Both the position numbers and the translations under genes were made by a program. The notes beneath the pieces were generated by a model. It saw only the letters and a list, made by a program, of their open reading frames with translations, was not told the origin of the DNA and searched no databases. A DNA stretch of 64,000 nucleotides from Henriciella pelagia. Its GTDB lineage: Bacteria > Pseudomonadota > Alphaproteobacteria > Caulobacterales > Hyphomonadaceae. Shown here in pieces: positions 42,985 through 62,736 of the stretch (within the stretch, counting starts at the first letter, position 1; each line of letters starts with the position of its first letter). Location: NCBI RefSeq assembly GCF_002088945.1, contig NZ_NCSU01000011.1, positions 1 through 64,000 of the forward strand. The letters are read 5' to 3'.

Positions 42985-44565
42985 ATGGCCAGCAAACCCG
43001 ATTCTGTCGCAGACAAACACGAACACGTCCTGATTGTCGATTTTGGAAGTCAGGTCACGCAGCTCATTGCCAGACGGCTGAGGGAATTGGGGGTCTATTG
43101 CGAGATCCACCCCTTCAACAAGGTAGACAGAGACCTGCTCCAGGCGTTCAATCCCAAAGCCGTCATCCTGTCCGGTGGCCCGGCGAGCGTCTACTGGGAT
43201 GATGCGCCGATGGCGGATCAGGCTGTGTTTGACTTTGGCGTGCCGGTGCTGGGAATTTGCTATGGCCAGCAAGTCATGATGCACCAGCTTGGGGGCCGCG
43301 TCGAAGGCGGAACGAGCCGCGAGTTTGGCCGCGCCTTCATCGAGAAGGTTGTCGACGATCCATTCCTCAGTGGCCTTCTTGAGAATGGCGAACATGAGCA
43401 GGTCTGGATGAGTCATGGCGATCATGTCGCCGAGATGGCGCCCGGCTTCGGGGTCATCGCAAAGTCACCAGGTGCGCCCTATGCGATCATTGCAGACCCG
43501 GAGCGGCGCTTCTACGGCACGCAGTTCCATCCGGAAGTCGTGCACACGACGAATGGCAGGCAGCTCCTCCGCAACTTCATCCATGGCGTCGCCGGGCTCA
43601 AGGGCGACTGGACAATGGCTGCCTACCGCGCCGAAGCGATCGATAAGATCCGCGCGCAGGTGGGCGATGGGAAAGTGATTTGCGGACTCTCTGGCGGGGT
43701 GGACAGCTCGGTAGCCGCCGTGCTGATCCATGAGGCGATCGGCGACCAGCTGACCTGCGTATATGTCGACCATGGTCTGATGCGCCTCAATGAGAGTGAG
43801 GAAGTCGTGGGCCTGTTCCGCGACCATTACAATATCCCACTCGTGCATGTGGATGCGTCCGACCTGTTCCTCGGGGAACTCGCCGGCGTCAGCGATCCGG
43901 AACAGAAGCGCAAGACCATCGGCAGGCTGTTCATTGATGTGTTCGAAGCTGAGGCGAAGAAGATTGGCGGCGCAGATTATCTGGCCCAGGGAACGCTGTA
44001 TCCCGATGTCATCGAGAGCGTATCGCCGACCGGCGGGCCGAGCCACACGATCAAGTCCCATCACAATGTAGGCGGTCTGCCCGAGCGGATGAACATGAAG
44101 CTGGTGGAGCCACTGCGGGATCTCTTCAAGGATGAGGTGCGGGTGCTTGGCCGAGAACTGGGACTGCCCGAGGCCTTTGTCGGTCGACATCCGTTTCCGG
44201 GGCCCGGTCTTGCTATTCGAATCCCTGGTGAGATCACCCGCGAGAAGGCTGACACGCTGCGCAAGGCCGACGCGATCTACATCGAGGAAATCAAGGCTGC
44301 TGGCCTCTACGATGAAATCTGGCAGGCTTTCTCTGTTCTGCTGCCGGTCAATACGGTTGGCGTCATGGGAGATGTCCGCACATATGAGGCGGTGCTGGCC
44401 CTGCGTGCGGTTACATCGACCGATGGCATGACTGCAGACTACTACCCTTACGATCACGCCTTCCTTGGCCGCGTCGCCACGCGAATCATCAATGAAGTGA
44501 AGGGCGTGAACCGGGTCGTCTACGACGTCACCAGCAAGCCCCCCGGCACAATTGAGTGGGAATGA
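42985..44565 (+). CDS. guaA: GMP synthase (glutamine-hydrolysing)
   Basis: Converts XMP to GMP with ATP and glutamine. 526 residues. The class I amidotransferase domain has the nucleophile C92 in LGICYGQQ and FHPEVVHT with the catalytic His and Glu. The ATP-pyrophosphatase domain has the PP-loop SGGVDS at 236-241, and the C-terminal dimerisation domain ends in [16 protein letters not shown] lies before the ATG. The last 15 bases (44551-44565) double as the integration site of the adjoining islands; the gene itself is intact. Confidence 0.99.
44551..44565 (+). repeat. guaA 3'-end attachment repeat, left copy
   Basis: ATTGAGTGGGAATGA is the guaA terminus (IEWE-stop). Thirteen of its 15 bases recur at 48464-48478 and its first 13 recur exactly at 60821-60833, all in the same orientation. 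The guaA 3' end is a known target of tyrosine integrases, and an integrase remnant starts 280 bases downstream, so this is the likely attL. Confidence 0.7.
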
Positions 44566-44679
44566 TTCCACGTCTCGCGCGGCCTATCGCGAACGATCAA
44601 TAAATCAAACAAATACAATAGCTTGATACCGATTTTCGTTGGGTATCTATCGCCCTCCATCGCGGACCAACGGGACATT

Positions 44680-44822
44680 CTGACGGTATACAAATTGCCT
44701 CTTCCTGCCTAAAGTCAAAATACCGTCAGCCCATTTTGGCGGCCTGACGGTATTTTTTCGGCATAACGCATTGAAAAACCAGCGTTTCCTTGTCGAAAAA
44801 CGGCCATTTTGACCTGACGGTA
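44680..44822 (+). repeat. Four CTGACGGTA arm-type repeats upstream of the integrase
   Basis: CTGACGGTA occurs at 44680-44688, 44744-44752 and 44814-44822 on the plus strand, and inverted at 44721-44729. The two middle copies form a 13-bp perfect inverted repeat (44717-44729 with 44744-44756) followed by a T run. Repeats between an attachment site and the integrase gene are the expected place for arm-type integrase binding sites. The hairpin might also act as a terminator for guaA. Confidence 0.6.
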
Positions 44823-44846
44823 AAATTGGTGGGAAGGAGGCGCTCT

Positions 44847-45315
44847 GTGCTAACCGATATTGCAATCAAGTCATTGAAACCAAAGGATAAACCCTTCAAG
44901 GTCGCTGACCGTGACGGTCTCTATGTGTCCGTCGCGCCGACCGGTACCAAGCCTTCCGCTACGACTACCGTGTGAACGGGCGCCGGGAGACGCTGACCAT
45001 CGGGCGTTATGGCAAGTATGGGATCACGCTGGCGGTTGCGCGCGAGAAGCTGATCGACGCGAAGAAGCTCGTGGATGAGGGTGTCTCGGCCGCCAAGGAA
45101 AAGAAGCGGGCCAAGGCTAAGACGAAATCTGAAGGGACATTCGGGGAGCTTGCTCTGCGCTGGCTCGCTGAGAGCGAAATGTCGGACTCGACCCGCGACA
45201 TGCGCCGGCACATTGTCGATCGGGACCTGATCCCGGCGCTCGGGAACTACACGCTGCGCGAAGTAACGGGCGAGGATGTCCGTTAGCTCTGCGACAAGAT
45301 CAAGAAAACGGCGTG
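44847..45315 (+). pseudogene. Tyrosine integrase (P4 type), frameshifted and truncated
   Basis: The N-terminal arm-DNA-binding domain (DUF4102 type) is recognisable: VLTDIAIKSLKPKDKPFKVADRDGLYVSV, then YRVNGRRETLTIGRYGKYG after a one-base deletion near 44950 (AAGCC where AAGGCC is expected). Reading continues to GEDVR, where TAG interrupts at 45284-45286, and resumes LCDKIKKTA. The whole catalytic domain is missing. The GTG start has AAGGAGG six bases upstream, so the gene was once functional. It lies directly after guaA, as expected for a guaA-targeting integrase. Confidence 0.85.
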
Positions 45316-45355
45316 ATGGGAAAAAAGAGGGCCTAAAAAGCTTCGCCCCGGGCGC

Positions 45356-46267
45356 ATGCGAAGCAGAGGCGGGTCCGGGGAGCCCTTATCGCTCTATCTC
45401 GTTATTCCGCCCTCGGACCTTTCGCAGACAAAGCCGCTGATCCGGCTCATTCTTAACCAGATCGGACGCAGGCTGACGGAAGAGCTGCCCGGTAAGGGCC
45501 AGCGCCGGCTTCTTCTGATGCTGGATGAGTTTCCAGCACTCGGGCGGCTCGACTTCTTCGAAAGCGCGCTCGCCTTCATGGCGGGCTATGGCATCCGCGC
45601 CTATCTGATCGCCCAGTCGCTGAACCAGATCGAGAAGGCCTACGGGCCAAACAATTCGATCCTCGACAACTGCCATGTGCGCATCGCCTTTGCGACCAAT
45701 GATGAGCGCACGGCAAGGCGGGTCTCCGATGCGCTCGGCACGACGACGGAACTTCGCTCTCAGAAGAACTATACCGGCCACCGGCTCGCGCCCTGGCTCT
45801 CGCACATGATGATCTCGCGCCAGGAAACCCAGCGCGAGCTGGTCACGCCCGGCGAAGTCATGCAACTCGCCGCAACCGACGAGATCGTCATGGTCTCCAG
45901 CGCGCCGCCGGTGCTCGCAAAGAAGCTGCGCTATTTCGAGGATGGGAGTTTCACACGGCGGGTTTTGCCACCTGCTTCCGCCGAATGGCGCTGGGATCGG
46001 GCGCCGGAGAACTGGACAGGGACGGTTGTGGCACCGGTCGCTGCGGATTTGGGAGAGCAGCACGCCGGGACGGACGGCCTGTCGCTGAAACTCACGCAAG
46101 AGCCGGAGCATGAGATCGAGACAGAGCCGCCGGTAATGACCGCTGAGTCGGAAACTGTGCCCGATCTGGAAGATACAGCCGATCCGTCTGACGACCGCAA
46201 CCTCGAAACCATCCGGCGCGCGGTCGCTGCCGATCGCGGTGATCCTGATTTCCTGCCGGAGTTCTGA
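45356..46267 (+). pseudogene. traG: TraG/VirD4 coupling-protein C-terminal fragment
   Basis: About 300 residues correspond to the C-terminal half of a conjugal coupling ATPase. The match begins at about 45380 (LSLYLVIPPSDLSQTKPLIR) and includes the Walker B region LLLMLDEFPALGRLDFFESA and IAQSLNQIEKAYG. The N-terminal membrane domain and Walker A loop, about half of the roughly 650-residue protein, are gone. It is joined almost directly to the broken integrase, so a deletion has removed the middle of the element. The reading frame is otherwise clean to its natural stop. Confidence 0.88.
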
Positions 46268-46271
46268 ACCC

Positions 46272-46637
46272 ATGGGCAAGCCACGTGTGAACATAAGGAT
46301 TTTAACAAAGCTCTATGCCCAGCTCTGCGAGGCGGCGGACAGGCCAGGCGCCACGAAGACGGCTATTGTCGAAGACGCGCTTCGGGCCTGGTTCGATCCA
46401 GAAGCGCGCTCGGTTCTGGAAGAGCGGCTCCTGGCAAGAATGGATGCCTTCGACCGGCGGCAGGCTGAGATCGAGCGCGATGTCGCCTACACCTATGAAA
46501 CGCTCGCTCACTATATCTATTATTGGCTCACGCGCACCGAACCGATCCCGGAAGGCGAGCGCGACATTGCCCACGCGCTCGGCCAGAAGCGGTTCGATCA
46601 TTTCATCGGGCAGGTGGCGCGGAAGATTGGAACCTGA
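46272..46637 (+). CDS. CopG-family ribbon-helix-helix protein
   Basis: A 121-residue protein, five bases after the traG fragment. The N-terminus KPRVNIRILTKLYAQLCEAA plus GATKTAIVEDALRAW matches the ribbon-helix-helix fold. The long C-terminal part (MDAFDRRQAEIERDVAYTYETLAHYIYYWLTRTEPIPEGE) is typical of the CopG-like proteins that sit between traG and trbB in integrative elements. It appears intact, but trbB and the rest of the mating-pair genes are missing. Confidence 0.82.
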   Translation: MGKPRVNIRILTKLYAQLCEAADRPGATKTAIVEDALRAWFDPEARSVLEERLLARMDAFDRRQAEIERDVAYTYETLAHYIYYWLTRTEPIPEGERDIAHALGQKRFDHFIGQVARKIGT

Positions 46638-46690
46638 TAGCGGTTGAAGCCCACTTGTCGACCTAGCGACCAGATCAAGACAAGTGGAGC

Positions 46691-47556
46691 TCAGCCGCTT
46701 CTGGGTACGTCAACAGCGGTACGCAGATACTCCCATATGTCTCCCGCGACCGTGCTTAGTGGAACGTTTTGGAGTTCGGTGCCGTCGGCATAAGTCAGCC
46801 ATTGCCTGACCTTCGCTGGATCCTCTGCGAACGCAGCGGATAGGCCTTGGGGCACGTCCGTTGGGAGAGGTGTGTTCCGGCGTTCGAACGTGGCCGAGAT
46901 GGCTGCACTCAGCTCTGCCGGATCGATCTTGGTTGCTTTCGGAATGGCCCAGAGATCGTAGAAGTCTTTCATGCGGCCGTTGATGAGGCCGAGGGCGACG
47001 ACCGCCTGGAATTTTTCGGCGATCACCGTTGCCGGTGAAGAGGCGCGGATTCGGGCGGGCTTAAAGTCGAGGATCGATCCGTATTCGATCTCATAGTGCG
47101 GATCGGGCAGGGCGTCACCAAAGCCGAGATCGACGGTGATCGGAACTTATGTCTTGCCGAGATGGGCCACCGTGCGGAGACGTTTGCCGCCATAGACCTG
47201 ATCCTCACGGATGTCGGCCGTGGTAATCGTGTCGATGCTGAACTTGAGTCCGTCGTCGGCGTCGAGCGACAGGATTTCGGCAAAGATCGAGGTCAGCGTC
47301 GCATCGTCGGTTTTCTGCCGAAGGCGAGGAAATCAATGTAGCGTGTGAAGCGGCCAGGGTCGGTGGTTCATAGAGTGACCAGCATTCCGCCCTTCAGAAC
47401 AAACTTGTCACGGTGTGGAGATTTGGACAGGCGGTAGATGAGACGCTCCAGGCCGAATGCGACGAGAAGGGTCTGGAAGTCGCGGCCTTTCGTTCGGGCA
47501 AGGTTCAGGATGCGCTGGCGAACTGACGCTGCGATGTTGGTCGGCTTTCTAGCCAT
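46691..47556 (-). pseudogene. AbiEii-type nucleotidyltransferase toxin, disrupted
   Basis: Homology to the AbiEii toxin continues along this stretch but is broken by at least three lesions. After KGGMLVTL a TGA replaces an expected Trp codon. After PGRFTRYIDFLAFG the frame shifts to DDATLTSIFAEIL. After VAHLGKT a TAA precedes VPITVDLGFGDALPD. The last part, IAEKFQAVVALGLINGRMKDFYDLW to the end, is clean. The usual R-D-I-D metal-binding motif reads RYID, so a catalytic Asp may also be lost. The start overlaps the antitoxin stop region, the normal AbiE gene order. Confidence 0.85.
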
Positions 47557-48178
47557 TGGATGTTAGCGCCTCCAGATAGGGACGCATGATCTTTGCCGCA
47601 CCGAAGTCGGCGGCCGCCTGCATCAGGACGGCTGGCGTGGCCTTGCGTTGATCAAGGGCCGCCTTGAGCGCTTCGATCGCCACCGAACGGTCGACCAGTT
47701 TCGGATTGCGGAAAGCATCCGCAATCGATTTTGACACAGAATAGATACGAACCGGCGTTCCGCCGATCTGATGCGCTTCCACGCCGTCCGAAAAGTAGGG
47801 CTCGCGGAACCTGACGACGCGAACCGGCGGATAGGCGATCGTTGGCTCCCAATCTTTCGCGCCAATCGCGAACCAGACCTTGCGGGGGAGTTGATCGATG
47901 AGGCCGTGATACGCCAGAGCCGATACGAGGCAGATGACGGATTTAGGCGCGCGCTTGGCGACTTCGGCCAGATTGGTGTTGAGATCTGCTTCCGCATCGG
48001 CAGCCCGGTAGAGGCCGCGTCCCATCCGGACTACGTCACCGGCGTCGACAGCCCTGGAGATCGCGGTCGCACTCACGCCGATCTTGCGAAGCTCAAACGC
48101 ACGGGCGAACTCGTGCTTCTGAAGATAAGCAAGGAGCCTTTCCTGCTGGGTGGCGGAGGTTGATGGTGCCTGTTTCAT
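47549..48178 (-). CDS. AbiEi-type antitoxin
   Basis: A 209-residue type IV toxin-antitoxin antitoxin and autorepressor. The N-terminal winged helix is seen in ERLLAYLQKHEFARAFELRKIG and SRAVDAGDVVRMGRGLYR; the C-terminal antitoxin domain contains SALAYHGLIDQLPRKVW, then the IYSVSKSIADAFRNPK segment. It reads through without interruption, unlike its partner toxin. The ATG at 48178 starts just inside a 7-bp inverted repeat that is probably its operator. With the toxin dead, the antitoxin is an orphan that may still repress related AbiE operons. Confidence 0.85.
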   Translation of the reverse strand: MKQAPSTSATQQERLLAYLQKHEFARAFELRKIGVSATAISRAVDAGDVVRMGRGLYRAADAEADLNTNLAEVAKRAPKSVICLVSALAYHGLIDQLPRKVWFAIGAKDWEPTIAYPPVRVVRFREPYFSDGVEAHQIGGTPVRIYSVSKSIADAFRNPKLVDRSVAIEALKAALDQRKATPAVLMQAAADFGAAKIMRPYLEALTSNG

Positions 48179-48182
48179 ATTC

Positions 48183-48207
48183 TCGGACACGATGCGTTTT
48201 TGTCCGA
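48183..48207 (-). promoter_or_regulatory. Inverted repeat, likely AbiEi operator
   Basis: TCGGACA (48183-48189) and TGTCCGA (48201-48207) are a perfect 7-bp inverted repeat with an 11-base gap, immediately upstream of the abiEi ATG. AbiEi proteins are known to repress their own promoter by binding inverted repeats. Confidence 0.55.
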
Positions 48208-48463
48208 AGATATGTAACACGCTGATTGTTCCCGTCGAGGGTGCTCGGGGGTGGAAGCTGATGCCAATTAAAAGGCCAAGTGGAGCCAGCACTATTATTC
48301 AGCTATGGTTCGTACGTGCACCGGAATCGTGTCAACTGCAACGACGCCCGTTGCATGCATCATTCGATTTGCCTGCGGAACGATACTGCCGGAATCGACG
48401 ACGGTTTTTCCACAGGTATTTTGCAAGGTATTGATTTCAAAGAAATTTGTCGTTTCTCTCATA

Positions 48464-48478
48464 ATCGAGTGGGAGTGA
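48464..48478 (+). repeat. guaA-end repeat, middle copy (island junction)
   Basis: ATCGAGTGGGAGTGA matches the guaA terminus at 13 of 15 bases (two transitions). It lies in the gene-free stretch 48208-48508, after the AbiE module and 30 bases before the carboxylesterase stop. Nothing else was recognised in that stretch. It is the likely right end of the first, decayed element and left end of the catabolic island. Confidence 0.55.
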
Positions 48479-48508
48479 AGGCTTCGCCTGCGCCGCGAGG
48501 CAGTGGCA

Positions 48509-50221
48509 TCAGCCTGGGCATTCGGCAGTCAGTTCCTGCGCAAGACCGGGACGCAGCAGGCCGAAGGTGCGCGTGAGGCGGCCGGCAAGCGCACACCGGC
48601 GATTGTCCTTGTCGAGCACGGGATCGGTCGCGAGTTCCGAGACGAGGCTATCCAGGTTGCCTGACTCCGCTTGCATGCGGCTGCCGCCGTCCCGAGGTGT
48701 GTCGAAAACCATGGTGTGCTGCCGGCCGCCTGCCTCTATCGCCGACCAGGCCGGGCATTTCCCGCCGGCCAAGAGGGCGTCCGGCCCATCAGCAGCGAAC
48801 CGCGTCCAGCAGGTCATCATTCCCTCGGACAGCGCCATGCGCCCCGCTGCATTCCTTCGGGTGAACAGCCGCTTGTCGAGGCGCCCCAAGAAGTTCTCGA
48901 AGTGGCCGAAGACGAAAGGAATTTCGAGGCTGTGGGCCGCGCCGATTAGATGGCCGAGATCGCTGAGCCCGACCCGGGCGCCTTCATCCCAGTCGAACCG
49001 GTAGGTTCGCACCGGTCCGGTTCCCGCTTCGGCGAGTTGCTGGGCAAATTCCGACACCCCAATCGCGCGCCAGACGCCTGTCATATAGCTGGAAACGGCG
49101 TTGTAGTGATCCGCGTCCCGCGCGACCGGAAACAGGAACAGGGCCTTGCGCGTCATGGCCGGGTCGAAGGCGAGCAGGTATTTCGCCTCGTCGCGATTGG
49201 AACCGATAATGAGCGGCAAGTTCCGCCCGGCCTGGTGGGCCGCGATCGCTTCCGCAAGGGGCCGATCGGACAGTGTCGTCCCGTCGCGGATGACGCCCGG
49301 CGTGCGTCCGTCGCGATAGGCGCCGAAAATGGCTTCGAGCGAGGCGTCCCGCAGAGCGCTGGCGTCGGGCGAAATGCTGTCGGTGAAGGCTTGTGCAGCC
49401 GGTATCGCGCCCACGATCTGAGAGGTTCGCCCGTCTCTCGCGATTTCCAGGGGAAAGCTTGCCGGCAGGCCGCTTTGGGCAATCGCAGCGCGATAGAGGC
49501 CATCGGCCTGCGGCATGGCAAGCAGGGCGAGTACATTGTTGGCGCCAGCGCTTTCGCCAAACAGTGTGACCGCGTCCGGATCGCCGCCGAAGGCCGCGAT
49601 ATTGTTCCGAGTCCAGCGCAGCGCCTGAACAAGGTCCAGCAAGGCAAAATTGGCCACGCCGTCTTCAAGTGCCGGGTGGGCGAACCAGCCGAGCGGTCCC
49701 AACCTGTATTGCACGACAACGACGATAACGTTACCGGCTTCCGCGAGTTTGGAGCCGTCATATTGCTCGGCCCGGCCCCAGACATTCGACCCGCCATGAA
49801 TCCAGACCATGACAGGCAGGGCGAAGGACCCGCTGGCATCCGATGGGGCATAGATGTCGAGATAGAGGCAATCCTCTTCGCCGCGAAGCACACCCTTTTC
49901 GATACCCTTCAGACTGTCCAGCCCGTTGGTGATCTGCGGGCACCAGCTGGCGTGCTGCAAGGCGTTCAGCGTTTCGCTGCGAGGGCTGGGCGGTTTGGTC
50001 GGGTGCCAGCGAAGCGGACCGTCAGGGGGACTGGCATAAGGGATGCCGAGCCAAGTGCGAGCGCCATTCGCCGAAGCACCGCCGACAACCTCCCCTTGCG
50101 CGGTCTGTACCAGCATCGCCGGCTGCGCCGCGAGGGGCGCTGCATGAGGTTGCGGCGGCTTTGCGCAGGCCGCGGCGAGGCACAGGAGGAGGAGCGAGAC
50201 AAGGCTCGGTCTAGAGGCCAA
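48509..50221 (-). CDS. Type-B carboxylesterase lipoprotein
   Basis: A 570-residue alpha/beta-hydrolase. The nucleophile is S224 in LFGESAGANN; WIHGGSNVWGRAEQYDG is the oxyanion-hole region, and EDCLYLDIYAP is the second family signature. I choose the TTG at 50221, because AAGGGAG lies seven bases upstream and the following residues form a lipoprotein signal with Cys19 (LLLCLAAACAKP). The start overlaps the stop of the upstream GH3 gene. It probably removes acyl esters from the substrate in the periplasm. Confidence 0.88.
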   Translation of the reverse strand: MASRPSLVSLLLLCLAAACAKPPQPHAAPLAAQPAMLVQTAQGEVVGGASANGARTWLGIPYASPPDGPLRWHPTKPPSPRSETLNALQHASWCPQITNGLDSLKGIEKGVLRGEEDCLYLDIYAPSDASGSFALPVMVWIHGGSNVWGRAEQYDGSKLAEAGNVIVVVVQYRLGPLGWFAHPALEDGVANFALLDLVQALRWTRNNIAAFGGDPDAVTLFGESAGANNVLALLAMPQADGLYRAAIAQSGLPASFPLEIARDGRTSQIVGAIPAAQAFTDSISPDASALRDASLEAIFGAYRDGRTPGVIRDGTTLSDRPLAEAIAAHQAGRNLPLIIGSNRDEAKYLLAFDPAMTRKALFLFPVARDADHYNAVSSYMTGVWRAIGVSEFAQQLAEAGTGPVRTYRFDWDEGARVGLSDLGHLIGAAHSLEIPFVFGHFENFLGRLDKRLFTRRNAAGRMALSEGMMTCWTRFAADGPDALLAGGKCPAWSAIEAGGRQHTMVFDTPRDGGSRMQAESGNLDSLVSELATDPVLDKDNRRCALAGRLTRTFGLLRPGLAQELTAECPG

Positions 50222-52346: not shown

Positions 52347-52421
52347 TCGTCGTCTTTCGGTCGTCTGGAAAAGGGAGGGGCCGGTTCAGGACCGGCCCCT
52401 TAGGCCAGTGGGAGAGGGGTG

Positions 52422-54713
52422 TCAGAAGGAGGCTGTGAGCCTTGCGCCGACATAGCGTTCGAAGTCGCGGGGCAGATATTGGCTGATGACGCCAGCATAA
52501 AGAGGATCTGCGAATACGTTCGAGGCATAGGTCTCGTCGAGCAGGTTGCGCACGAAGACAGAGGCGGTCCAGCCACCGTCATCGGCCGTGATCCCGGCAC
52601 TCAGATGCAAGAGGCCATAGCCGTCCTGCGTCGTGTTCGGGTTCTGGTCGAGCTGAAACTGGACATCGCTCTGCCAGCTGCCATCGAGCTGGAAGAAGCC
52701 GTCAAAAGGCATGCTTGCGAGAGGGATGTCCTGACGCAGGCTTGCGGTGAAGCGCCAGTCCGGCGAGTTGGGCAGCTCCTCGCCGGAGAGGTCCTGCGCA
52801 CCGTTAACGCAGCCCTCGGCCGGTGTCTGGCCGCGATAGCACTGGGCAAACGGAAAGCTCTCCACGGTGGCATCTGTATAGGCAATACCCCCCTGGAGCA
52901 GGGTGTTGTCGGTCAGAAGGGCCGAGGCGTCCAGCTCGATGCCCTTGGTGCTGACCTTGCCGGCATTGGCAACCACAATGGTGGAGGCAGCCACGTCGCG
53001 TTCCTGGGCCTGGAAGTCGTCATATTCGGTCCAGAAGGCGGCGGCGTTGAACTGCAGGCGGCCGTTCGGCGTCTGGACTTTCAGGCCGGCCTCATAGCTG
53101 TCGGAAACTTCGGCATCGACATATTCGGTCGACTGCGGCGCAGTGAAGATGACGTCGAAGGCGCGCCCCTTATAGCCGCGAGCATAACGCAGATAGGTCA
53201 TCACGCTGTCGGACCATTCCTGTCGCAGGCCGATATTGCCCACCAGCGCCGTGTCGGACGTGTCGCCATCGATGTCAGCCGGTGTGCCGGCCGAGCCGCC
53301 GAGCGGGAAGTCGCCCGGAAGCAGGGTGTTTGTCGGATCACGGAAGACGCGGTAGTCGAGCGTCTCATTAATCACCCGCAGACCACCGAACAGGGTCGTG
53401 CCCTGGCCGAACCTGTAGTTCGCACTGGCGAAAGCGGCATAGTTCCGGTTGCCGACCGAGCCGTTGAACTGGCCGCTCAGGCCAACGACGCCAAGCCCGG
53501 TCAGGGCCTCAATGCGGCGGCGGAAGGAGCGGTCGAGGTCGAGCTGGAAGAGGTAGACACCGACGACATAATCGAAATTGTCCCAACGCGGCGAAGCCAG
53601 GCGGAACTCCTGCGAGGTCTGGGAGAGGCTCGTCTGGCCGCTATTGAGATCGAAGGTGATGACACCCGGGATCGGGTCTTCGAAGTCGAGCGCATCGACA
53701 TCGATATTGTTCTCGAAATCCCATTCCCGGAAGGCTGTGATGGAGGTGAAGGTAAAGCCGTTATCGAACCGGTACTCCGCCTTGCCGGAAACGCCCCATT
53801 GCTCTGAATTGTTGTAGACGGGTGCGTTCAGCTTCGTCTGGTTGTTTTCAGGGCCGGCCACAACCGGATCCAGCAGCGTGTCGAGAGTGACACCAACGAC
53901 AGGGTTGACCGCGGTGGATGTATCGCGGATCTGGTAGGCGCAGCAGTCCTGCTCGGTATCGCGATAATCGGCGATGAAGGTGAGATCGAGCGCGCTGCTC
54001 GGCTGGACAAGGATTTTGCCGCGAACGCCCCAATTGTCATATCCGTTGAGGTCGCGGTCGTCGGACACGTTCTCTATGTGGCCCTTCTGCGATTTTGTGA
54101 ATGCGGTCAGCCGGCCGAGAACGGTGTCCGTGATCGGCCCGGAGACCGTGCCGCGAAGCGCGTACTCCTCCCCTTCGGCGACGGTCAGGTCCACTTTTCC
54201 GGACAAGGTGTCAGTGGGCGCCTGTGTCGTTACGGCAATCACGCCGGCCGAGGCGTTCTTGCCGAACAGGGTGCTTTGCGGACCACGCAGGACTTCGACC
54301 CGCTCCACATCGACAAGGTCCTGGAAGCCCTGGCCCTGACGAGCGAGGACGACGTCGTCGACGACAAAAGACACGCTCGGCTCAACGCCCGAGGAGAAAA
54401 CCTCGGTTCCGACCCCACGGATGCGAACCGAACTGTTCAGCTCGTTGGAGCTTTGCGTGAAGGTCAGTGACGGCACCAGCGTTGCGAGGCCCTCGATCGA
54501 GGACACGCCCGAGTTTTCCAGGTCCTCGCCGGAGCGGGCAGACACGGCGACGGGCACGTCCTGCAGGGTTTCAGGCCGTTTGGTGGCGGAAACCATGATG
54601 GTGTCGAGCTTTCGCTCGGCGTCGCCGGTGCTGTCCTGCGCAGAGGCAGGGGCGGCCAGACAGGTGCCGAGCGCGATGCAGGAAGCCGTAATGGCAAGGC
54701 GATTATGAAGCAT
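52422..54713 (-). CDS. TonB-dependent receptor
   Basis: Outer-membrane receptor of 763 residues. After a signal peptide (APASAQDS) comes a TonB box-like segment (DTIMVSATKRPETLQDVPVA), the plug domain (VVDDVVLARQGQGFQDLVDV, RGPQSTLFGKNASAG) and a 22-strand barrel ending in YVGARLTASF. The chosen ATG at 54713 has GGGAGG seven bases upstream. The sequence type (VSATKR...VPVA) is common among receptors for plant- or algae-derived compounds in sphingomonads and Hyphomonadaceae. It heads a minus-strand group with the GH3 and esterase genes. Confidence 0.95.
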   Translation of the reverse strand: MLHNRLAITASCIALGTCLAAPASAQDSTGDAERKLDTIMVSATKRPETLQDVPVAVSARSGEDLENSGVSSIEGLATLVPSLTFTQSSNELNSSVRIRGVGTEVFSSGVEPSVSFVVDDVVLARQGQGFQDLVDVERVEVLRGPQSTLFGKNASAGVIAVTTQAPTDTLSGKVDLTVAEGEEYALRGTVSGPITDTVLGRLTAFTKSQKGHIENVSDDRDLNGYDNWGVRGKILVQPSSALDLTFIADYRDTEQDCCAYQIRDTSTAVNPVVGVTLDTLLDPVVAGPENNQTKLNAPVYNNSEQWGVSGKAEYRFDNGFTFTSITAFREWDFENNIDVDALDFEDPIPGVITFDLNSGQTSLSQTSQEFRLASPRWDNFDYVVGVYLFQLDLDRSFRRRIEALTGLGVVGLSGQFNGSVGNRNYAAFASANYRFGQGTTLFGGLRVINETLDYRVFRDPTNTLLPGDFPLGGSAGTPADIDGDTSDTALVGNIGLRQEWSDSVMTYLRYARGYKGRAFDVIFTAPQSTEYVDAEVSDSYEAGLKVQTPNGRLQFNAAAFWTEYDDFQAQERDVAASTIVVANAGKVSTKGIELDASALLTDNTLLQGGIAYTDATVESFPFAQCYRGQTPAEGCVNGAQDLSGEELPNSPDWRFTASLRQDIPLASMPFDGFFQLDGSWQSDVQFQLDQNPNTTQDGYGLLHLSAGITADDGGWTASVFVRNLLDETYASNVFADPLYAGVISQYLPRDFERYVGARLTASF

Positions 54714-54750
54714 TGAATATCCTCCCGGTAAAACTGGCTTCACCCAGTTT

Positions 54751-54766
54751 TTCATCCAAGTGGATG
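54751..54766 (-). promoter_or_regulatory. Palindromic operator before the TonB receptor
   Basis: CATCCA-AG-TGGATG is an inverted repeat 38 bases upstream of the receptor ATG. It shares TCCAA(G/T)TGGATG, 11 of 12 bases, with a site in the TetR-MFS intergenic region, so the TetR regulator next door is the likely binder. Confidence 0.6.
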
Positions 54767-54815
54767 GATTTCATGTCAAAGATGTCCTGTCAAGCTCCCG
54801 GGCGGAGAGTTTTTT

Positions 54816-55496
54816 TCAGGCCTTGAGCCAGTCGGGTAGTGCCGGCCAGTCGGCGCGGATTCGCGACGGGTCGCGCAGGAGGAAGGCGAAAACGGAGTCG
54901 ATATGCGCTTCGATCGCCTGTGGCGACAGTATGTCGACGCCGTAGAGTTCGCGCGCCTCGGCGGCGAGAACAAATGGCATCTGGCAGATCGAAGTGATGA
55001 TGAAGATGAGGGAAGGGTGCCAGGCATTGGGGAGGTTGCCAGCTTCCATGTGCCGGCGGGTAGGGCCCGCATAGACTTCATGCCCGGGCTGGATGAAGTT
55101 CTCGACCATCCAGTGCAGGCGCGGGCCGCCGCGCACCGATTCGGATATCATGATGCGCGCATGCTCTGGGTGCTTTGCGCAATAGTGGATGTAGCGACGA
55201 AGGAATTCGCGGTACCCTTCGAGCGTGTCCATTTCGGGCGGGGTGCCGTTTTCGAAGCCAAGCTCCGCGCGCAGGCGTTCGAACATGTCGGCCACCGCCT
55301 CGCGCCAGAGATTGTCCTTTGTTCCGAAATGGTAGCGGATCATGGCGTGAGAGGCGTCGGCGTCGGCAGCAATGTCGCGCGTGTTTGCGGAATCGAAACC
55401 ACGTTCGGCGAAATGATGCCGGGCAACTTCCAGAATGCGGGCGCGTGTGGCTTCGGCCCTTGCCTGCACGGGTTTGCGTGTCGTCTTTCCCGCCAT
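54816..55496 (-). CDS. TetR-family transcriptional regulator
   Basis: A 226-residue regulator. The N-terminal helix-turn-helix domain contains ILEVARHHFAERGFDSANTRDIA and ADADASHAMIRYHFGTKDNLWREAV. The C-terminal ligand domain resembles the TetR_C family with HWMVENFIQPGHE. GGGAG lies before the ATG at 55496. It sits between the receptor (same strand, downstream) and the MFS transporter (divergent), and identical palindromes lie on both sides, so it probably controls the whole locus in response to a substrate-derived ligand. Confidence 0.92.
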   Translation of the reverse strand: MAGKTTRKPVQARAEATRARILEVARHHFAERGFDSANTRDIAADADASHAMIRYHFGTKDNLWREAVADMFERLRAELGFENGTPPEMDTLEGYREFLRRYIHYCAKHPEHARIMISESVRGGPRLHWMVENFIQPGHEVYAGPTRRHMEAGNLPNAWHPSLIFIITSICQMPFVLAAEARELYGVDILSPQAIEAHIDSVFAFLLRDPSRIRADWPALPDWLKA

Positions 55497-55578
55497 TGCC
55501 TGATCTCCCGTCTGTATGGTGCTGGTGTCAGGACCTAACCCGAAACCCGCTGTTATGCACTTTTCATCATAAAAATAT

Positions 55579-55592
55579 TCCAATTGGATGAA
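55579..55592 (+). promoter_or_regulatory. Palindromic operator between tetR and the MFS gene
   Basis: TCCAATTGGATGAA contains the perfect 10-bp palindrome TCCAATTGGA. Read on the minus strand it gives TTCATCCAATTGGA, which matches 54751-54764 at 13 of 14 bases. Its position between two divergent genes fits autorepression plus control of the transporter operon. Confidence 0.6.
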
Positions 55593-55634
55593 CTTTTGGG
55601 TTAAGGCTGCCTGAAGCGTCGAGGGAGGCAGAGC

Positions 55635-57005
55635 GTGAATCGTCAACGGTCAGGGGGCGGCGCGGTCGGGACAGGCCGCGTCCAGCTCGGCACAGTCATT
55701 GGCTATGGTGCGGGCGATTTCGGCCTCAACCTGTTCTATACCGGGCTCAATCTTTACCTGCTCTACTACTACACAGACGTGGTAGGGCTCGCTCCTGGCA
55801 TTGCCGGGTCTCTGTTCATGGTTGCCCTGCTGTGGGATGCAGTGACCGATCCGGTCATGGGGGCAGTTGCCTCGCGCACCCGCTCGCCTTTCGGCCGTTA
55901 CCGGCCCTATCTCCTGTTTGGCGGTCCCCTGCTCGGTGCGAGTTTCGTTCTGCTTTTCGCAGCCCCCGTGCTCTGGCCTGCCCAGCCCGTGATCGCCTGC
56001 CTGCTGACGCACCTCCTGTTCCGGACCGTCTATACGGTGTTTGGCGTTCCCTACGTTTCTCTCAGCGCTGCCATGACGACGGACGGAAAGACGCGTACAT
56101 CCCTTTCCGGTGCACGGATGCAGTTCGCGACGCTCGGTGCCATCGTGACCGCTTTCCTGACACCCTGGCTTGCCGAGCAGTTCGCGAACGGAAGCCTGGT
56201 ACGCGGCTACATGGTCACGGCTGTGGTCTACGCCCTGTTTGCTGAAGCGGTCTTCCTCGTCACCTTCTTCTCGGTAAGGGAGCGGGCAGATATCGGTATC
56301 CAGTGCCCCGATCTCATGGCGTCGATGCGCGCCGTGCGAGGCAATCACGCATTCTGGATCCTGTTTGCCAGCGTGGTGATGAACGTCGTGGCCTCGACCA
56401 TCTTTACCAAGTCCATCATATACTACACCCGATACGTGATCGGTGAGGCCGGAATGGTGCGCGAGGTGCTGACGTTCTACACCATTGCCGCTGCAGCCGC
56501 CGTTTTCGGGTGGACGCTGCTTGCGAGGCGAACCTCCAAGACGCTGGTGCTGAGCATCGGTCTCTCGCTCAATGCCGTAATCTTTCTCCTGCTTTTCCTG
56601 ATCGCGCCAGAGAGCAAGACCATGTTCCTGGGATTTGTCGTCATGGCTGGCATCGGCATGGCGGCCACCATCGTCGCCTTCTGGGCCATGCTGCCGGATA
56701 CGGTCGAATTTGGCGAGTGGAAGACCGGGGTCCGTGACGAGAGTATCTTCTTCGGCCTGTACCAGTTTTCTCAGAAGGCGGCGTCGGGGCTCGCCGTGGG
56801 CGCCGTCGGCCTGATTCTCCAGGCCATCGGCTATGTCGCCAATACCGACCAAGCGGCAGGTACACTCGACGGGCTTAGGGTCCTCAGCTTTGCACTGCCG
56901 GCGGCCGGCATGGCCGCCGCCGCCGCGATCATCGCTTTCTATCCGATGCGCGGAGACCGGCACAGCAGGATCGTCGAGCTGCTCAAGGCAAGAGGAGAGG
57001 GATGA
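55635..57005 (+). CDS. MFS sugar-cation symporter (GPH/MelB-like)
   Basis: A 456-residue permease with about 12 membrane helices. The GPH-family features are present: GYGAGDFGLNLFYTGLNLYLLYYYTDV at the start, DAVTDPVMGAVASRTRSPFGRYRPYLL (the loop 2-3 motif with the cation-site Asp) and WAMLPDTVEFGEWKTG. The start is GTG with GAGGGAGG upstream. It is the first gene of the plus-strand operon and overlaps the sulfatase gene by four bases. It likely imports the glycoside or disaccharide freed outside. Confidence 0.92.
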   Translation: MNRQRSGGGAVGTGRVQLGTVIGYGAGDFGLNLFYTGLNLYLLYYYTDVVGLAPGIAGSLFMVALLWDAVTDPVMGAVASRTRSPFGRYRPYLLFGGPLLGASFVLLFAAPVLWPAQPVIACLLTHLLFRTVYTVFGVPYVSLSAAMTTDGKTRTSLSGARMQFATLGAIVTAFLTPWLAEQFANGSLVRGYMVTAVVYALFAEAVFLVTFFSVRERADIGIQCPDLMASMRAVRGNHAFWILFASVVMNVVASTIFTKSIIYYTRYVIGEAGMVREVLTFYTIAAAAAVFGWTLLARRTSKTLVLSIGLSLNAVIFLLLFLIAPESKTMFLGFVVMAGIGMAATIVAFWAMLPDTVEFGEWKTGVRDESIFFGLYQFSQKAASGLAVGAVGLILQAIGYVANTDQAAGTLDGLRVLSFALPAAGMAAAAAIIAFYPMRGDRHSRIVELLKARGEG

Positions 57006-58753
57006 TGTTGCGCACTTTTCTGACTGCGCTGGTCTTGGTGGCGGCTGCGGGCTGCCAGTCGGTTCCGGGCGAGGCCGGGCGGGCGGCGCAGCGTCCGAAC
57101 ATCCTGCTGGTCGTCTTCGAGGATATGAGCCTCAAGGTGGGCGCTTTCGGCGATCCCGTGGCAACCACGCCGATACTCGACTCCCTGGCGCAGGAAAGCA
57201 TCCTGTTTCCGAACACGTTCACCACCGCCGGTGTGTGCGCGCCGTCGCGGGCTTCGCTGATCACGGGTGTTCACCAGCAGACCCTCGGCGCCCAGCATAT
57301 GCGGACCCATGCCTTCGAAACGGATTTCGAGCCGTCAGGCTTTGAGATCGGCTACGCCGCTGTGCCGCCGCCGGAGGTGAAAGCCTTTCCCGAGCTGTTG
57401 CGCCAGTCGGGATACTACACCTTTGCCGGCTATGGCGGCTGGGTGATTTCGAACAAGAAGGACTACCAGTTCGGAACGCCTTTCACTGTTTGGGATGAGG
57501 ATAGCGAGGCCGCGAGCTGGCGGGGGCGGGCACCCGGCCAGCCCTTCTTCGGCATGGTTACCCTGGCAACGACTCACGAATCCTTCCTGTTTCCCGTCCC
57601 GGCCATTCGCGACACCGAGCTTGCGAAGACTGTCGCCGCCCGCAACGAAAGACTGCTGTCGGGCAAGGTCGCGGTCACGGATCCGTCCGATGTGACCGTG
57701 CCGGCCTGGCTGCCGGACGTGTCTGAAGTGCGCCGGGAGATTGCGACCCAATATGACAACATCGCCTTTACCGAACAGAAGCTTGCCATGCTCCTCGAGG
57801 ACCTAGAGCGGGACGGCCTTGCGGATGATACAATAGTCATCGTCACCACCGACCATGGCGACGGATTCCCCCGGGCCAAACGTTCGGTCTACGATTCGGG
57901 TATTCGCGTTCCGCTATTGGTCCGGTTTCCGGACGGCCGGGGCGCCAGCGAGGTGCGCGACGAACTGGTGAGCTTCGTCGATCTTGCGCCAACGATCCTG
58001 TCGCTTGCGGGGGCGCCCACGCCTGAATGGCTGCACGGGCAGGTCTTCCTCGGCGAGGCTCGGGACGCGCCCAATTCCTACATCTTCGCCGCAAGCGACC
58101 GGATGGATCAATGGATGGACCGTAGCAAGGCGGTGCGCGATGAACGCTACAAGCTCATCCGGAACTACATGCCCCAAGTGGCGCTGTTGCAGCCCGTCGC
58201 GTTCCGGGAGGAGTTGCGATCCATGCAGGCGCTCCAGCGGCTGCATGATGAAGGCAGGCTCAGTGACCTGCAGGCGAGCTATCTCGACGTCCCGCGTGCG
58301 CGGCTTGAGCTTTACGACATGGAAGAGGATCCCGAGGAAACCCGCAACCTTGCCGGCAAGCCCGCGCTGCGTGCCGTTCGTCAACGCCTTGTCGATGCGC
58401 TTGATGACTGGCTGGAACGGACACCGGACCTCTCCGCCGTGTTCGAAACCGAAATGGTCGAAGCGATGTGGCCGGGCGGCCGGCAGCCTGTCACAAGCGC
58501 TCCGTCGATCAGCGTATCCAGGGCGGACGATTCCGGGCTCGTCCTTGCCTCCGAAACCGAAGGCGCCTCTATTGCGTGGCGACGGCAGGGGAATGCGGCC
58601 GGGGCCTGGCAGCTTTACACGCCGGGAACGCGCCTGCCGGCAGACCCCTGCATTGAGGCGCGCGCGGTTCGCTATGGCTACGGCGCCAGCGATATCGTGA
58701 CAAACTGCGTTCAGGACGGAGATACCGCAAAGACAGGTGAAGGAGAGCACTGA
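57002..58753 (+). CDS. Sulfatase lipoprotein
   Basis: A 583-residue sulfatase that removes sulfate esters. The N-terminus is a lipoprotein signal (LVLVAAAGCQS, Cys18). RPNILLVVFEDM gives metal-binding Asp residues. C79-A-P-S-R is the CxPSR formylglycine motif with SLITG following, and TTDHGDGFPRAK is the second metal-site segment. A formylglycine-generating enzyme or anSME is needed for activity but is not in this window. It overlaps the transporter gene, and the esterase start follows one base after its stop. The extra C-terminal 90 residues look like a beta domain. Confidence 0.93.
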   Translation: MMLRTFLTALVLVAAAGCQSVPGEAGRAAQRPNILLVVFEDMSLKVGAFGDPVATTPILDSLAQESILFPNTFTTAGVCAPSRASLITGVHQQTLGAQHMRTHAFETDFEPSGFEIGYAAVPPPEVKAFPELLRQSGYYTFAGYGGWVISNKKDYQFGTPFTVWDEDSEAASWRGRAPGQPFFGMVTLATTHESFLFPVPAIRDTELAKTVAARNERLLSGKVAVTDPSDVTVPAWLPDVSEVRREIATQYDNIAFTEQKLAMLLEDLERDGLADDTIVIVTTDHGDGFPRAKRSVYDSGIRVPLLVRFPDGRGASEVRDELVSFVDLAPTILSLAGAPTPEWLHGQVFLGEARDAPNSYIFAASDRMDQWMDRSKAVRDERYKLIRNYMPQVALLQPVAFREELRSMQALQRLHDEGRLSDLQASYLDVPRARLELYDMEEDPEETRNLAGKPALRAVRQRLVDALDDWLERTPDLSAVFETEMVEAMWPGGRQPVTSAPSISVSRADDSGLVLASETEGASIAWRRQGNAAGAWQLYTPGTRLPADPCIEARAVRYGYGASDIVTNCVQDGDTAKTGEGEH

Positions 58754-58754
58754 T

Positions 58755-59675
58755 ATGCTGCGAACGTGTGCAAGACTGGCCGTTGGTGGCCTTTTCCTGA
58801 TTGCAGGAGGCAGTCCCGTGCTGGCGCAAACGGACACGGGCTCTGACGAGAGGCCAATGGCGCTGCCACCGGTGCCGGTGCCGGCAGATCCGCCAGAACA
58901 TGCCGCCATTTCGCTCGGCGGGGCTTTGGACGATCGTGCACTGTGGGAGCATTTTCTGGATCAGCTTACGGTTCGCAATGTAACCGCAGCGGAACTCTAT
59001 CCCGTGCTGCCAGCGTCCGATGCGGGCAATGGCAAGGCCGTGATCGTCGTACCAGGTGGCGGTTACATGTTCGTCTCGGTCGAGAATGAGGGATTTCCGG
59101 TTGCAGAGCGGCTGGCCGCAGAAGGCTATACGGCCTTTGTTCTGAAATACCGGACGCGGCCAACGCCCGCCGATCCTGAGGCGTTTCTTGCCTTCCTTGC
59201 GCCGCTCGCCGCCCAGCTCGGCAAGGTGGAGCTGGAGGCCTATGTCCCGGCGGTGGAAGATCTTGCGTCGGCCATGACTTATGTTTCACGGCACTGTCCG
59301 GATTATGGTTGCGCATCAGGACGCGTTGACCTGATCGGCTTTTCGGCGGGTGGCCTGTCCATTATCCGGATGCTGGAAACGCAGCCAAAGGATGTGACGG
59401 TTGCCTCGGCGGCGCTAGTCTATCCGCCTCTGTCCCAGACGGTGCGGGCCCGGAGCAAGCCACCGCTCTTCCTTGCCGTTGCGTCTGACGACCCTCTTTT
59501 CCGGCAAGGCGGTTTTACCGTGCCACAAGCCTGGTACCGCGCCACCGGACGGCTCGAGTTTCATCTTTACGATCATGGCGGGCATGGCTTTGGCACCCTG
59601 CGCAAGGGTGCGACGAGCGAGCGCTGGCTGGACCAGTATGTGAGCTGGCTATCGGTCGCGCACGATCAGGATTGA
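58755..59675 (+). CDS. Secreted alpha/beta-hydrolase (acetyl-esterase-like)
   Basis: A 306-residue exported esterase. The signal peptide ends near GGSPVLAQT. VIVVPGGGYMFVSVENEGFPVAERLA is the oxyanion-hole region, GFSAGG the nucleophile elbow with the catalytic Ser, and YDHGGHGFG carries the catalytic His. This form is common in acetyl-xylan or acyl-sugar esterases of polysaccharide loci. GAAGGAG lies before the ATG at 58755. It is the third gene of the MFS-sulfatase-esterase operon. Confidence 0.88.
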   Translation: MLRTCARLAVGGLFLIAGGSPVLAQTDTGSDERPMALPPVPVPADPPEHAAISLGGALDDRALWEHFLDQLTVRNVTAAELYPVLPASDAGNGKAVIVVPGGGYMFVSVENEGFPVAERLAAEGYTAFVLKYRTRPTPADPEAFLAFLAPLAAQLGKVELEAYVPAVEDLASAMTYVSRHCPDYGCASGRVDLIGFSAGGLSIIRMLETQPKDVTVASAALVYPPLSQTVRARSKPPLFLAVASDDPLFRQGGFTVPQAWYRATGRLEFHLYDHGGHGFGTLRKGATSERWLDQYVSWLSVAHDQD

Positions 59676-59696
59676 TGGTTCGCAGCACTGCTTGGC

Positions 59697-59963
59697 TCAA
59701 AGCGACGCCATGATGCTGCGGCTAGGTGTGACCTTGTTGTCGAGGAAGTCGCGCCAGATGTCGGCGATCGCATCCGGACCGCTGATGCGCTCGACTGTGA
59801 CCTCGCTGGCGGCCGTGTGGGCGAGGCGCGCGCTGGCTTCACCGGCCTTTTTGTAGAGCACGCCGGGGCCTCACTCCTTGTTGCGCTTGGCGATCTGTGC
59901 TGGCGCAAAGAAAAAGGTCGGCCTAGCGCCCGGCAGGTCCTTCGCTACGCCGCGTTTTTCCCA
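59697..59963 (-). pseudogene. C-terminal remnant, probably DUF2855 family
   Basis: About 89 codons on the minus strand read WEKRGVAKDLPGARPTFFFAP, QIAKRNKE, then TGA (59871-59873), then GPGVLYKKAGEASARLAHTA through VTPSRSIMASL to the natural stop at 59697. The TGA sits where Trp is expected (NKEWG), so it looks like a nonsense mutation. The pattern FFAPAQIAKR resembles DUF2855 proteins from memory. The upstream part is lost where the P450 remnant begins. Confidence 0.5.
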
Positions 59964-60518
59964 ATGGGTCGCCCCGACTATGCAGCTTTCGACCATGTCA
60001 AGGTGCCTGTGCAGTTTGCCGGTCAGTTCGCCATTGCCGGGCTCGACACAGTGGCGGCCGCCATCGGCTTCGGCCTCTTGCACCTCGCCCGTCATCCGGA
60101 AGACCAGAAACGTCTACGCGACAAGCCGTCCGTTATTCCCGGCGCCGTGGAAGAGATGCTGCGGGCCTTCTCGACCGTTCAGATGATCCGCAAGACGACA
60201 AAGGATACCGAGCTGTGCGTTGTGAAGATCAAGGCCGGCGACCTCGTCTGCTGCCCGTCCATGGTGGCGAACCGCGACCCGGAGGAGTATCCCGACCCCG
60301 ACCAAATCGACTTCGACCGCAACGCTAACCGTCATATGGCCTTCGCCTATGGCGTTCACCGCTGTCTGGGTTCGCATCTGGCCCGCCGGGAACTCGTGAC
60401 TGCGCTGGAGGAGTGGTATAAGTGTATTCCAGCGTTCCGGATCAAGGAGGGCAGCCCTCCTGTCACTTATGGTGGGTTCGTCTTCGGCGTGGACTCGCTA
60501 CACCTCGTCTGGGACTGA
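59964..60518 (+). pseudogene. Cytochrome P450 C-terminal half
   Basis: About 184 residues match the C-terminal half of a bacterial P450. The I-helix is AIAGLDTVAAAIGF, the K-helix ExxR is VEEMLR, and the heme-binding loop is MAFAYGVHRCLGSHLARREL with the Cys ligand at 60363-60365. The N-terminal half, including the substrate-recognition regions before the I-helix, is absent, so it cannot be an active enzyme. The frame is clean to its stop. It converges with the DUF2855 remnant, so two truncated genes meet at about 59963. Confidence 0.85.
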
Positions 60519-60903
60519 ACGATCAGGTCTTATAGGCCCAGGCGGAACATATTCTGGCCGCCGGGGAACAGCCCTTCGTACCTGATCTGTCATTCTGTTC
60601 GATTAGGCTCTGGAGCGGGCCAATCGCCGGTTCAGGATTGCGGGAGAATGTCACTTTTAGCGTTCGATCTGTGTATGCTGTTCCGAAGAACACAAAAGTG
60701 TGAGTCCATTCACTATCAAGAAGCCCCGCAGAAACAGAAAGCTGGCTTTCTTGGCGGTATTTTCATCCACAGATTTTCATGCTCTGCAGTAACTACAACA
60801 GGTTACGGTGCTAGTTCATCATTGAGTGGGAATAGGAATAAGTACCTGATTTCGTCCTCGCATACCCCGCTAGGGCTGTGTCTTGATCGCCTTGGGGGTG
60901 GGC
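60519..60903 (+). other. Gene-poor junction region
   Basis: No real gene was recognised in this relatively AT-rich stretch. It contains the third guaA-end repeat at 60821-60833 and leads into the IS1595-type remnant at 60904. Confidence 0.5.
60821..60833 (+). repeat. guaA-end repeat, right copy
   Basis: ATTGAGTGGGAAT is identical to the first 13 bases of the guaA terminal repeat at 44551-44563 and in the same orientation. It would be the right attachment site of the catabolic island. Confidence 0.6.
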
Positions 60904-61205
60904 ATGTCGTACCTGCTTTTGCCTCAATTCCACGACGAGAAGGCTGCTCGCGAATTTGCGGAAGCTCGGGTCCGGGCTGACGGTGATGCTTGTCCACACT
61001 GCGGCGTCATGGGTGAATTGGGTGTTCTCAAAGGCTGACTACCTGCACTGGCGTCTACAAGTGCTACGCTTGCCGCAAGCCTTTCTCCTGCTAGCATCCG
61101 GCAAGAAGGCTATGGCAGCAACAACTGTCCCGCACGCTTGTCATGACGCTGAATGCCGCTTGGTTCATGTCTCACCTGTCAGACAGCTCGTACGTGTGGT
61201 CGATT
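60904..61205 (+). mobile_element. IS1595-type transposase remnant
   Basis: The start MSYLLLPQFHDEKAAREFAE and the zinc-ribbon half CPHCGVMGE match IS1595-family transposases. A stop follows after VLKG (61036). The second zinc-ribbon half TGVYKCYACRKPFS appears in another frame (61041-61088), and NAAWFMSHL in yet another (about 61146-61175). The DDE catalytic core is missing. It is a decayed 5' fragment. Confidence 0.7.
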
Positions 61206-61434
61206 GGTATACCGAAAAAAGCCAAACGATGACAAAAAGCCGCAATGCCAAAGATTTTTCGATGCCGCTCGAGAGAGCGGTGGCGACGAATCTGCCGAAG
61301 CGTTTGAGCTGGTTTTTCGAGAAATTGTTCCAGCCAAAGCGCGTCAGCAGGAATGCCTGAAGACTTTCAAGAGCTCGCGACTGGGCAAAGCCGCATTCCA
61401 GCAGTTTGATACTGTCCTCAAGGGGAGCATATGA
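61206..61434 (+). pseudogene. Small hypothetical protein fragment after the IS remnant
   Basis: About 70 codons read KKPNDDKKPQCQRFFDAARE, then GGDESAEAFELVFREIVPAK to a stop at 61434. This resembles small proteins of unknown function that I recall accompanying IS1595-type elements. It has no clear start or ribosome-binding site and is fused in frame to shifted transposase sequence, so I treat it as a remnant. Confidence 0.35.
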
Positions 61435-62735: not shown

Positions 62736-62736
62736 G

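Follow-up and report, generated by a model that had tools for sequence, protein, structure and literature searches.

Evidence for an Array of Decayed Islands at the 3' End of guaA in Henriciella pelagia

Introduction

Why do the last bases of guaA, the gene for GMP synthase, recur twice more downstream of the gene in Henriciella pelagia? The window considered here is a stretch of 64,000 nucleotides (RefSeq assembly GCF_002088945.1, contig NZ_NCSU01000011.1, positions 1 to 64,000, forward strand) from a genome (G000) of 3.44 Mb in 16 contigs, whose genus group also includes G020 and G010. An earlier note, made from the sequence alone, took the three copies as the borders of two genomic islands in tandem, the first a decayed conjugative element and the second a catabolic locus brought in by guaA-targeted integration. 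On comparison with related genomes, the interval 44551-60833 is most probably an array built up by accretion at the 3' end of guaA, made up of an older element and a later integrative and conjugative element (ICE) of the G030 family, both of them decayed. In the following, the gene and the three attachment (att) sites, including the left site attL, are taken first.

42985-44565, plus strand: guaA (GMP synthase), the attachment target, an open reading frame (ORF) of 526 amino acids (aa)
44551-44565, plus strand: attL, the guaA end; core GAGTGGGAAT, with a TGA stop from the element (sequence match and stop-codon comparison)
48459-48478, plus strand: middle att, the right end of element 1, TCATAATCGAGTGGGAGTGA (flank homology to right ends in G030 and G020)
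60765-60833, plus strand: outer right end; core ATTGAGTGGGAAT at 60821-60833, native TAG at 60833-60835 (79% to element A of G025)

Boundaries of the Array

The guaA gene was found in all 61 genomes searched, its own included, and its 3' terminus at 44565 reads ATTGAGTGGGAATGA. The copy at 48464-48478, ATCGAGTGGGAGTGA, differs from the guaA end at two positions, and the copy at 60821-60835, ATTGAGTGGGAATAG, matches it at 13 of 13 bases and continues with AG; both are on the same strand as guaA. Two same-strand matches with at most two mismatches were observed in 44566-64000, compared with a mean of 0.03 in 300 dinucleotide shuffles of that interval, of which ten gave one match and none gave two or more. 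When up to three mismatches were allowed over the whole window, five matches were obtained against a shuffle mean of 1.65. The 15-mer is thus weak under loose matching, and independent proof of the repeats is needed. A degenerate guaA-end pattern (at most two mismatches) matched 11 times in the whole genome and four times as a reversed control; three of the 11 matches are the guaA end and the copies at 48464 and 60821. Two near-copies were set aside: the one at 35497 has three mismatches, and the one at G000:C2:312125 showed neither right-end nor left-arm sequence in the surrounding bases looked at.

Such proof is provided by the flanks. Of the last 700 bases up to 48478, 692 can be aligned (79%) with the terminus of the G030 element at its right attachment site, attR (E 4e-169), and 46706-48478 matches a right end in G020 at 82%; like the middle att, that end reads GAGTGGGAGTGA. 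The 69 bases up to 60833 match the right terminus of G025's 77-kb element A at 79% (E 5e-10). The right-end signature TTCATCATYGAGTGGGAAT, with at most one mismatch, occurs in 28 of 398 genomes of the order, own included, and in none as a reversed control. A chance origin of the copies is ruled out by the flank homology and the shuffles. It is the relatives, and not the 15-mer by itself, that establish the three guaA-end copies as true borders of islands, with insertion at the guaA 3' end and direct repeats of the core, and the right ends in the array belong, by their alignments, to two different guaA families. The three copies and their shared orientation, as given in the earlier note, are confirmed. 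The bases 44551-44565 are indeed a copy of the site, but the TGA within them is the element's and not guaA's own stop.

Beyond the outer right end, the chromosomal flank includes csgF.

62175-62735, plus strand: csgF, chromosomal flank (Pfam CsgF 3e-33)

The distance from the right end to this gene is 1.3 kb in the window, 62 kb in G019 and about 14 kb in G020; in G025 the gene lies 27 kb past the att at 82204. The proposed island end at 60821 is upheld by the homology to element A of G025, and csgF follows guaA-type right ends in these three genomes too. The gene at 68097 is found about 4-6 kb after guaA in G002, G004, G014 and G017, which have empty-type guaA ends. By this comparison, the native gene order resumes downstream of 60833. 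Between the outer att and csgF, a stretch of 1.2 kb (60834-62057) has a lower G+C content (0.51) and hardly any DNA match in the relatives compared, and the three ORFs overlapping it have no Pfam match. No RNA family reached its gathering score in 40000-64000, and the three tRNA genes of the window all lie below 11.2 kb.

Within the 80 bases preceding the right-end signature, a GACGGT-like motif was scored (at most one mismatch each) in 29 of 30 right-end loci and a TTWTCCACA-like box in 28 of 30, counts for which no control was run. The box resembles a DnaA box. In the window, the motif and box region lies at 60753-60771 and 48400-48414.

Exchange of the guaA Stop Codon

The guaA 3' ends were compared at the best-scoring 30 loci of one family, from 30 of its 37 genomes; the seven without a locus are uncounted. 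The flank was examined for a guaA-type integrase over 1.5 kb past guaA, and over less in L023 (691), L031 (923) and L034 (392). Empty-type ends read GAGTGGGAATAG, while element-bearing ends mostly read GAGTGGGAATGAT and then continue into the arm. Among the 15 loci with an integrase match, the stop is TGA in 14 and TAA in one; among the 15 without a match, it is TAG in 13 and TGA in two, one of which (L032) retains a piece of the left arm. The association of TAG with integrase absence has a Fisher p of 1.8e-6, which is not a strict probability because the guaA loci are related. Because the copy at 60821 together with the following AG restores the native TAG, the present stop of guaA is element-derived and its native end displaced 16 kb outward. 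The check proposed in the earlier note, an empty relative in which guaA is followed by the bases after 60833, found no such genome: guaA carries an insertion in both G025 and G012, which are closest to this lineage.

The First Element

The interval between guaA and the middle att contains the following features.

44566-44846, plus strand: left arm of element 1; TGACGGTA occurs four times (three direct, one inverted)
44847-45307, plus strand: remains of a guaA-type tyrosine integrase (aa 1-154 out of 419)
45356-46267, plus strand: TraG/TraD coupling protein, C-terminal part (Pfam T4SS-DNA_transf 1.9e-45; 83% DNA identity to G030 44094-44690)
46272-46637, plus strand: small ORF adjoining traG and kept in the G030 element (weak sub-threshold Pfam match)
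46691-47560, minus strand: AbiEii-type toxin gene, broken (Pfam AbiEii; only 46691-47026 matched as an open piece)
47549-48292, minus strand: AbiEi-type antitoxin ORF (Pfam AbiEi_4 1.4e-8)

A counterpart is available in G030, a genome of another genus, in which a 59.4-kb element with a left att and an intact 419-aa tyrosine integrase lies between the guaA end and a single right end (80 kb examined). Window segments 44566-45306, 45382-45978, 46202-46625 and 46724-48474 are collinear with this element, where their counterparts are, in order, the part up to 2973, 44094-44690, 44905-45325 and 59818-61569. The gaps in this alignment correspond to about 41 kb and 14.5 kb lost from element 1. Pfam matches of ten ORFs in the G030 element comprise TrbI, TrbL, CagX, CagE_TrbE_VirB, T2SSE, a relaxase domain and T4SS-DNA_transf (TraG), together with ParB and an AcrB-type pump. 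Given the collinearity and these conjugation genes, element 1 is a worn conjugative element, in agreement with the earlier note.

The guaA-type integrase remnant that had been noticed just after guaA is likewise confirmed, though it is broken over two frames and its catalytic domain is missing; at the left end of element 1 only aa 1-154 are present, and no intact guaA-type integrase was found there. The left arm holds, within 285 bases, four of the ten TGACGGTA sites in 184 kb. The search of element 1 for conjugation genes found only the C-terminal part of TraG and its small neighbour. Full-length matches to the guaA-type integrase occur in G030, G021, G019, G020, G018, G010, G025 and G035; in the own genome none was found besides the remnant, the next best match being an intact tyrosine integrase at G000 C6:315467-316645 with 30% identity to the guaA type.

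The Second Segment and Its Cargo

Segment 2 (48479-60833) is mainly occupied by a cluster of seven genes, which begins 31 bp from the middle att.

48509-50392, minus strand: carboxylesterase (cargo; Pfam COesterase 2.4e-84)
50211-52346, minus strand: glycoside hydrolase family 3 (GH3; cargo)
52422-54755, minus strand: TonB-dependent receptor (cargo)
54816-55646, minus strand: TetR-type regulator (cargo)
55635-57005, plus strand: GPH-family sugar:cation symporter (cargo; TIGR00792 328.8 bits, cut-off 231.35)
57002-58753, plus strand: sulfatase (cargo; Pfam Sulfatase 3.3e-42)
58737-59675, plus strand: alpha/beta hydrolase (cargo; Pfam DLH/BD-FAE)
59697-60051, minus strand: DUF2855 gene fragment, 355 bases (84% over 364 columns to G020; Pfam DUF2855 on the G020 ORF)
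59817-60518, plus strand: ORF containing the C-terminal piece of a cytochrome P450 (Pfam p450, positions 267-425 of the 462 in the profile)

The substrate of the cluster is probably an esterified or sulfated glycoside. The 5' part of the ORF with the P450 fragment overlaps the DUF2855 fragment on the opposite strand.

At E <=1e-170, with at most three candidates scored per genome, the sulfatase was found in five of the 398 order genomes, own included. All four other carriers (G262, G220, G138 and G148) share the order of six of the seven cargo genes; the last hydrolase is present in G220 and G262 and was not found in the modules of G138 and G148. In G262, a genome of another genus, the module ends 1.4 kb before a guaA-type attR, TTCATCATCGAGTGGGAATAGG, which is followed by rpiB (Pfam LacAB_rpiB). 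By sequence likeness, the start of an rpiB-like gene lies directly after guaA in G220 and after attR in G281. The guaA of G262, with a left end and a 69%-identical integrase, is on another contig than the module. In a looser search of the 61 genomes, relatives of the sulfatase (47-52%) were found in four besides the own genome and relatives of the GH3 enzyme (40-66%) in nine; G022 has five of the cargo genes, rearranged.

Arrays in Other Genomes and Known Systems

Comparable arrangements are present at other guaA loci. A nearly identical element of about 77 kb occurs at guaA in G025 (C1:1849783-1928216) and G035 (C23:72406-150806), two genera of one family, with 99.6% identity over 78.2 kb aligned, part of guaA included; this near-identity suggests very recent transfer. 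The layout of the sister genome G025 is like that of the window: the 77-kb element, an att at 82204, and then an island without an integrase. The same second island is held directly at guaA in G012, with a weak integrase remnant (39%); its right end was searched for in both genomes and not found. Further right ends in one stretch were observed in G019, G334 and G164. Tandem sites differ among themselves: a native-type TAG stands behind the first right end in G019 and G334, and what precedes their next right end may therefore include chromosomal sequence. In G164, a genome of the same order, three guaA-element right ends lie within 21 kb (C33:291-21616).

Eight right ends have more island or another right end downstream: those of the window, G019, G334, G164 (two), G025, G138 and G308. 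The last two are less sure. An intact guaA-type integrase was seen after none of the eight; for G138, which shows a 36-aa fragment, and for G308 the test covered 1.5 kb. Distal members may survive only in integrase-less form, or such units may be taken up in that form.

Arrays of this kind have precedents. In tandem ICE arrays and cis-mobilizable elements (CIMEs), such as the SXT arrays, serial integration at one att leaves att-bounded segments, some of which are without a recombinase. The window likewise has an att-bounded segment without a recombinase beside another element; SXT arrays and CIMEs use other target genes, and here both members of the array are decayed.

At guaA itself, the closest parallel is GIsul2. 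According to PMC9376610, GIsul2 integrates at guaA with the core GAGTGGGA, has the sites attL, attLR and attR, and encodes an integrase that excises and integrates the integrase-less CR2-sul2 unit. The window shares with it the guaA 3' end, the core, three att sites and a middle-to-right unit without an integrase. In contrast, GIsul2 has a working integrase and its mobility has been shown, while the integrase of the window array is broken; the CR2-sul2 unit is ISCR2-related and carries a resistance gene, while segment 2 carries catabolic cargo. A Pfam scan of the main ORFs in 48479-60833 found no ISCR-type rcr gene. The guaA of a Terricaulis metagenome-assembled genome (L084, past 11571) continues with GTGACGGGCACTGGC, like the CR2 boundary given in PMC9376610. 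ICEs adjoining guaA are reported for Mesorhizobium (PMC8627217), and ICERspD18B (PMC7775301) is probably located at guaA as well; these ICEs are guaA-adjacent as here, in other lineages. The likeness to GIsul2 is one of location and layout, that to the Mesorhizobium ICEs and ICERspD18B one of location. A literature search of limited breadth turned up no published account of guaA islands in Henriciella or Hyphomonas. Islands at guaA, tandem arrays and integrase-less att-bounded units are, in kind, already known.

Proposed Origin and Alternatives

In the proposed mechanism, a guaA-type tyrosine integrase would carry out recombination between a circular element's attP and the guaA 3' end (core GAGTGGGA), restoring the guaA frame with the element's TGA stop and moving the native TAG end outward. 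The boundaries and the stop exchange follow from the comparison of genomes, while the recombination itself is proposed by analogy with known integrases. The older element would have integrated first, its right terminus surviving at 60765-60833; an ICE of the G030 family would have entered the same guaA end next, giving the order guaA-attL-element 1-att-segment 2-attR. Two large deletions have reduced element 1 from about 59 kb to 3.9 kb, removing the integrase catalytic domain and most of the transfer genes, and segment 2 has lost, or never had, a left arm and integrase. On its own, the array can probably no longer move.

Several observations weigh against this account. No integrase match and no TGACGGTA left arm were found in segment 2; because no such remnant was found beside 48478, the view that the segment was once a complete element draws on its right end and on the G025 and G012 islands. 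The evidence for the outer right end at 60821 consists of the 69 bases and the signature, and to the left of these bases the window does not match G025. Bases 60834-62038 have no match in the relatives compared. In addition, three of the four other carriers have the module away from guaA (G138 and G148 at one shared location, G220 at another), the DUF2855 gene of G020 follows the att after about 50 bases with no cargo between them, and no att separates the cargo from the DUF2855 fragment in the window.

The last three observations bear on a possible but unlikely alternative, in which the array is real and ordinary recombination, homologous or illegitimate, rather than guaA integration, brought the catabolic cluster into it at a later time. 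The arrangement in G020 and the locations in G220, G138 and G148 favor such an entry, as does the finding that the cargo proteins of the window are mostly nearest to those of G220, where the module is not at guaA (TonB 89%; the TetR regulator is an exception). However, the whole module lies inside a guaA-type right end in G262, the cargo of the window begins very close to its att, and the cargo could equally have been lost in G020. The claim that the cargo arrived by guaA-targeted integration is therefore kept in part: the G262 copy speaks for it, while the missing integrase and left arm, the other locations and the G020 arrangement speak against it, and arrival by this route is plausible rather than proven.

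An improbable alternative is that segment 2 is an integrase-less att-bounded cassette, which never had a left arm of its own and entered the attR of a resident guaA element with an integrase acting in trans, as described for CR2-sul2. Its appeal lies in the attL-attLR-attR layout, with no integrase between the last two sites, and in the middle site GAGTGGGAGTGA, which equals the start of the CR2 boundary, both as in PMC9376610; the eight right ends with more sequence and no intact integrase beyond them point the same way. No copy with an att on both sides was seen elsewhere, though; the att of the G262 copy was seen at the right only, its left side being in a fragmented assembly, and the comparison of G025 with G012 suggests loss of an integrase next to an att. 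Finally, a single element spanning 44551-60833 with a fortuitous copy at 48464 would fit the one integrase remnant and the frequency of the 15-mer at up to three mismatches, but it is contradicted by the match of 692 of 700 bp to the G030 right terminus, ending at attR, and by the match of 46706-48478 to the right end in G020, and is highly improbable.

Significance

The guaA stop codon is a simple marker: TAG predominates at empty-type ends, and ends occupied by an element have TGA or TAA. The guaA loci compared form a well-bounded natural series at one att site, with empty, single, near-identical across genera, tandem and decayed states. It is doubtful, though conceivable, that distal members of guaA arrays in these bacteria are systematically integrase-less att-bounded catabolic cassettes moved in trans by guaA-type integrases; if this were true, guaA would be a site where cassettes are slowly loaded, those for environmental metabolism and not only those with resistance genes. 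On the preferred account, islands can leave catabolic genes beside guaA after their own mobility has been lost.

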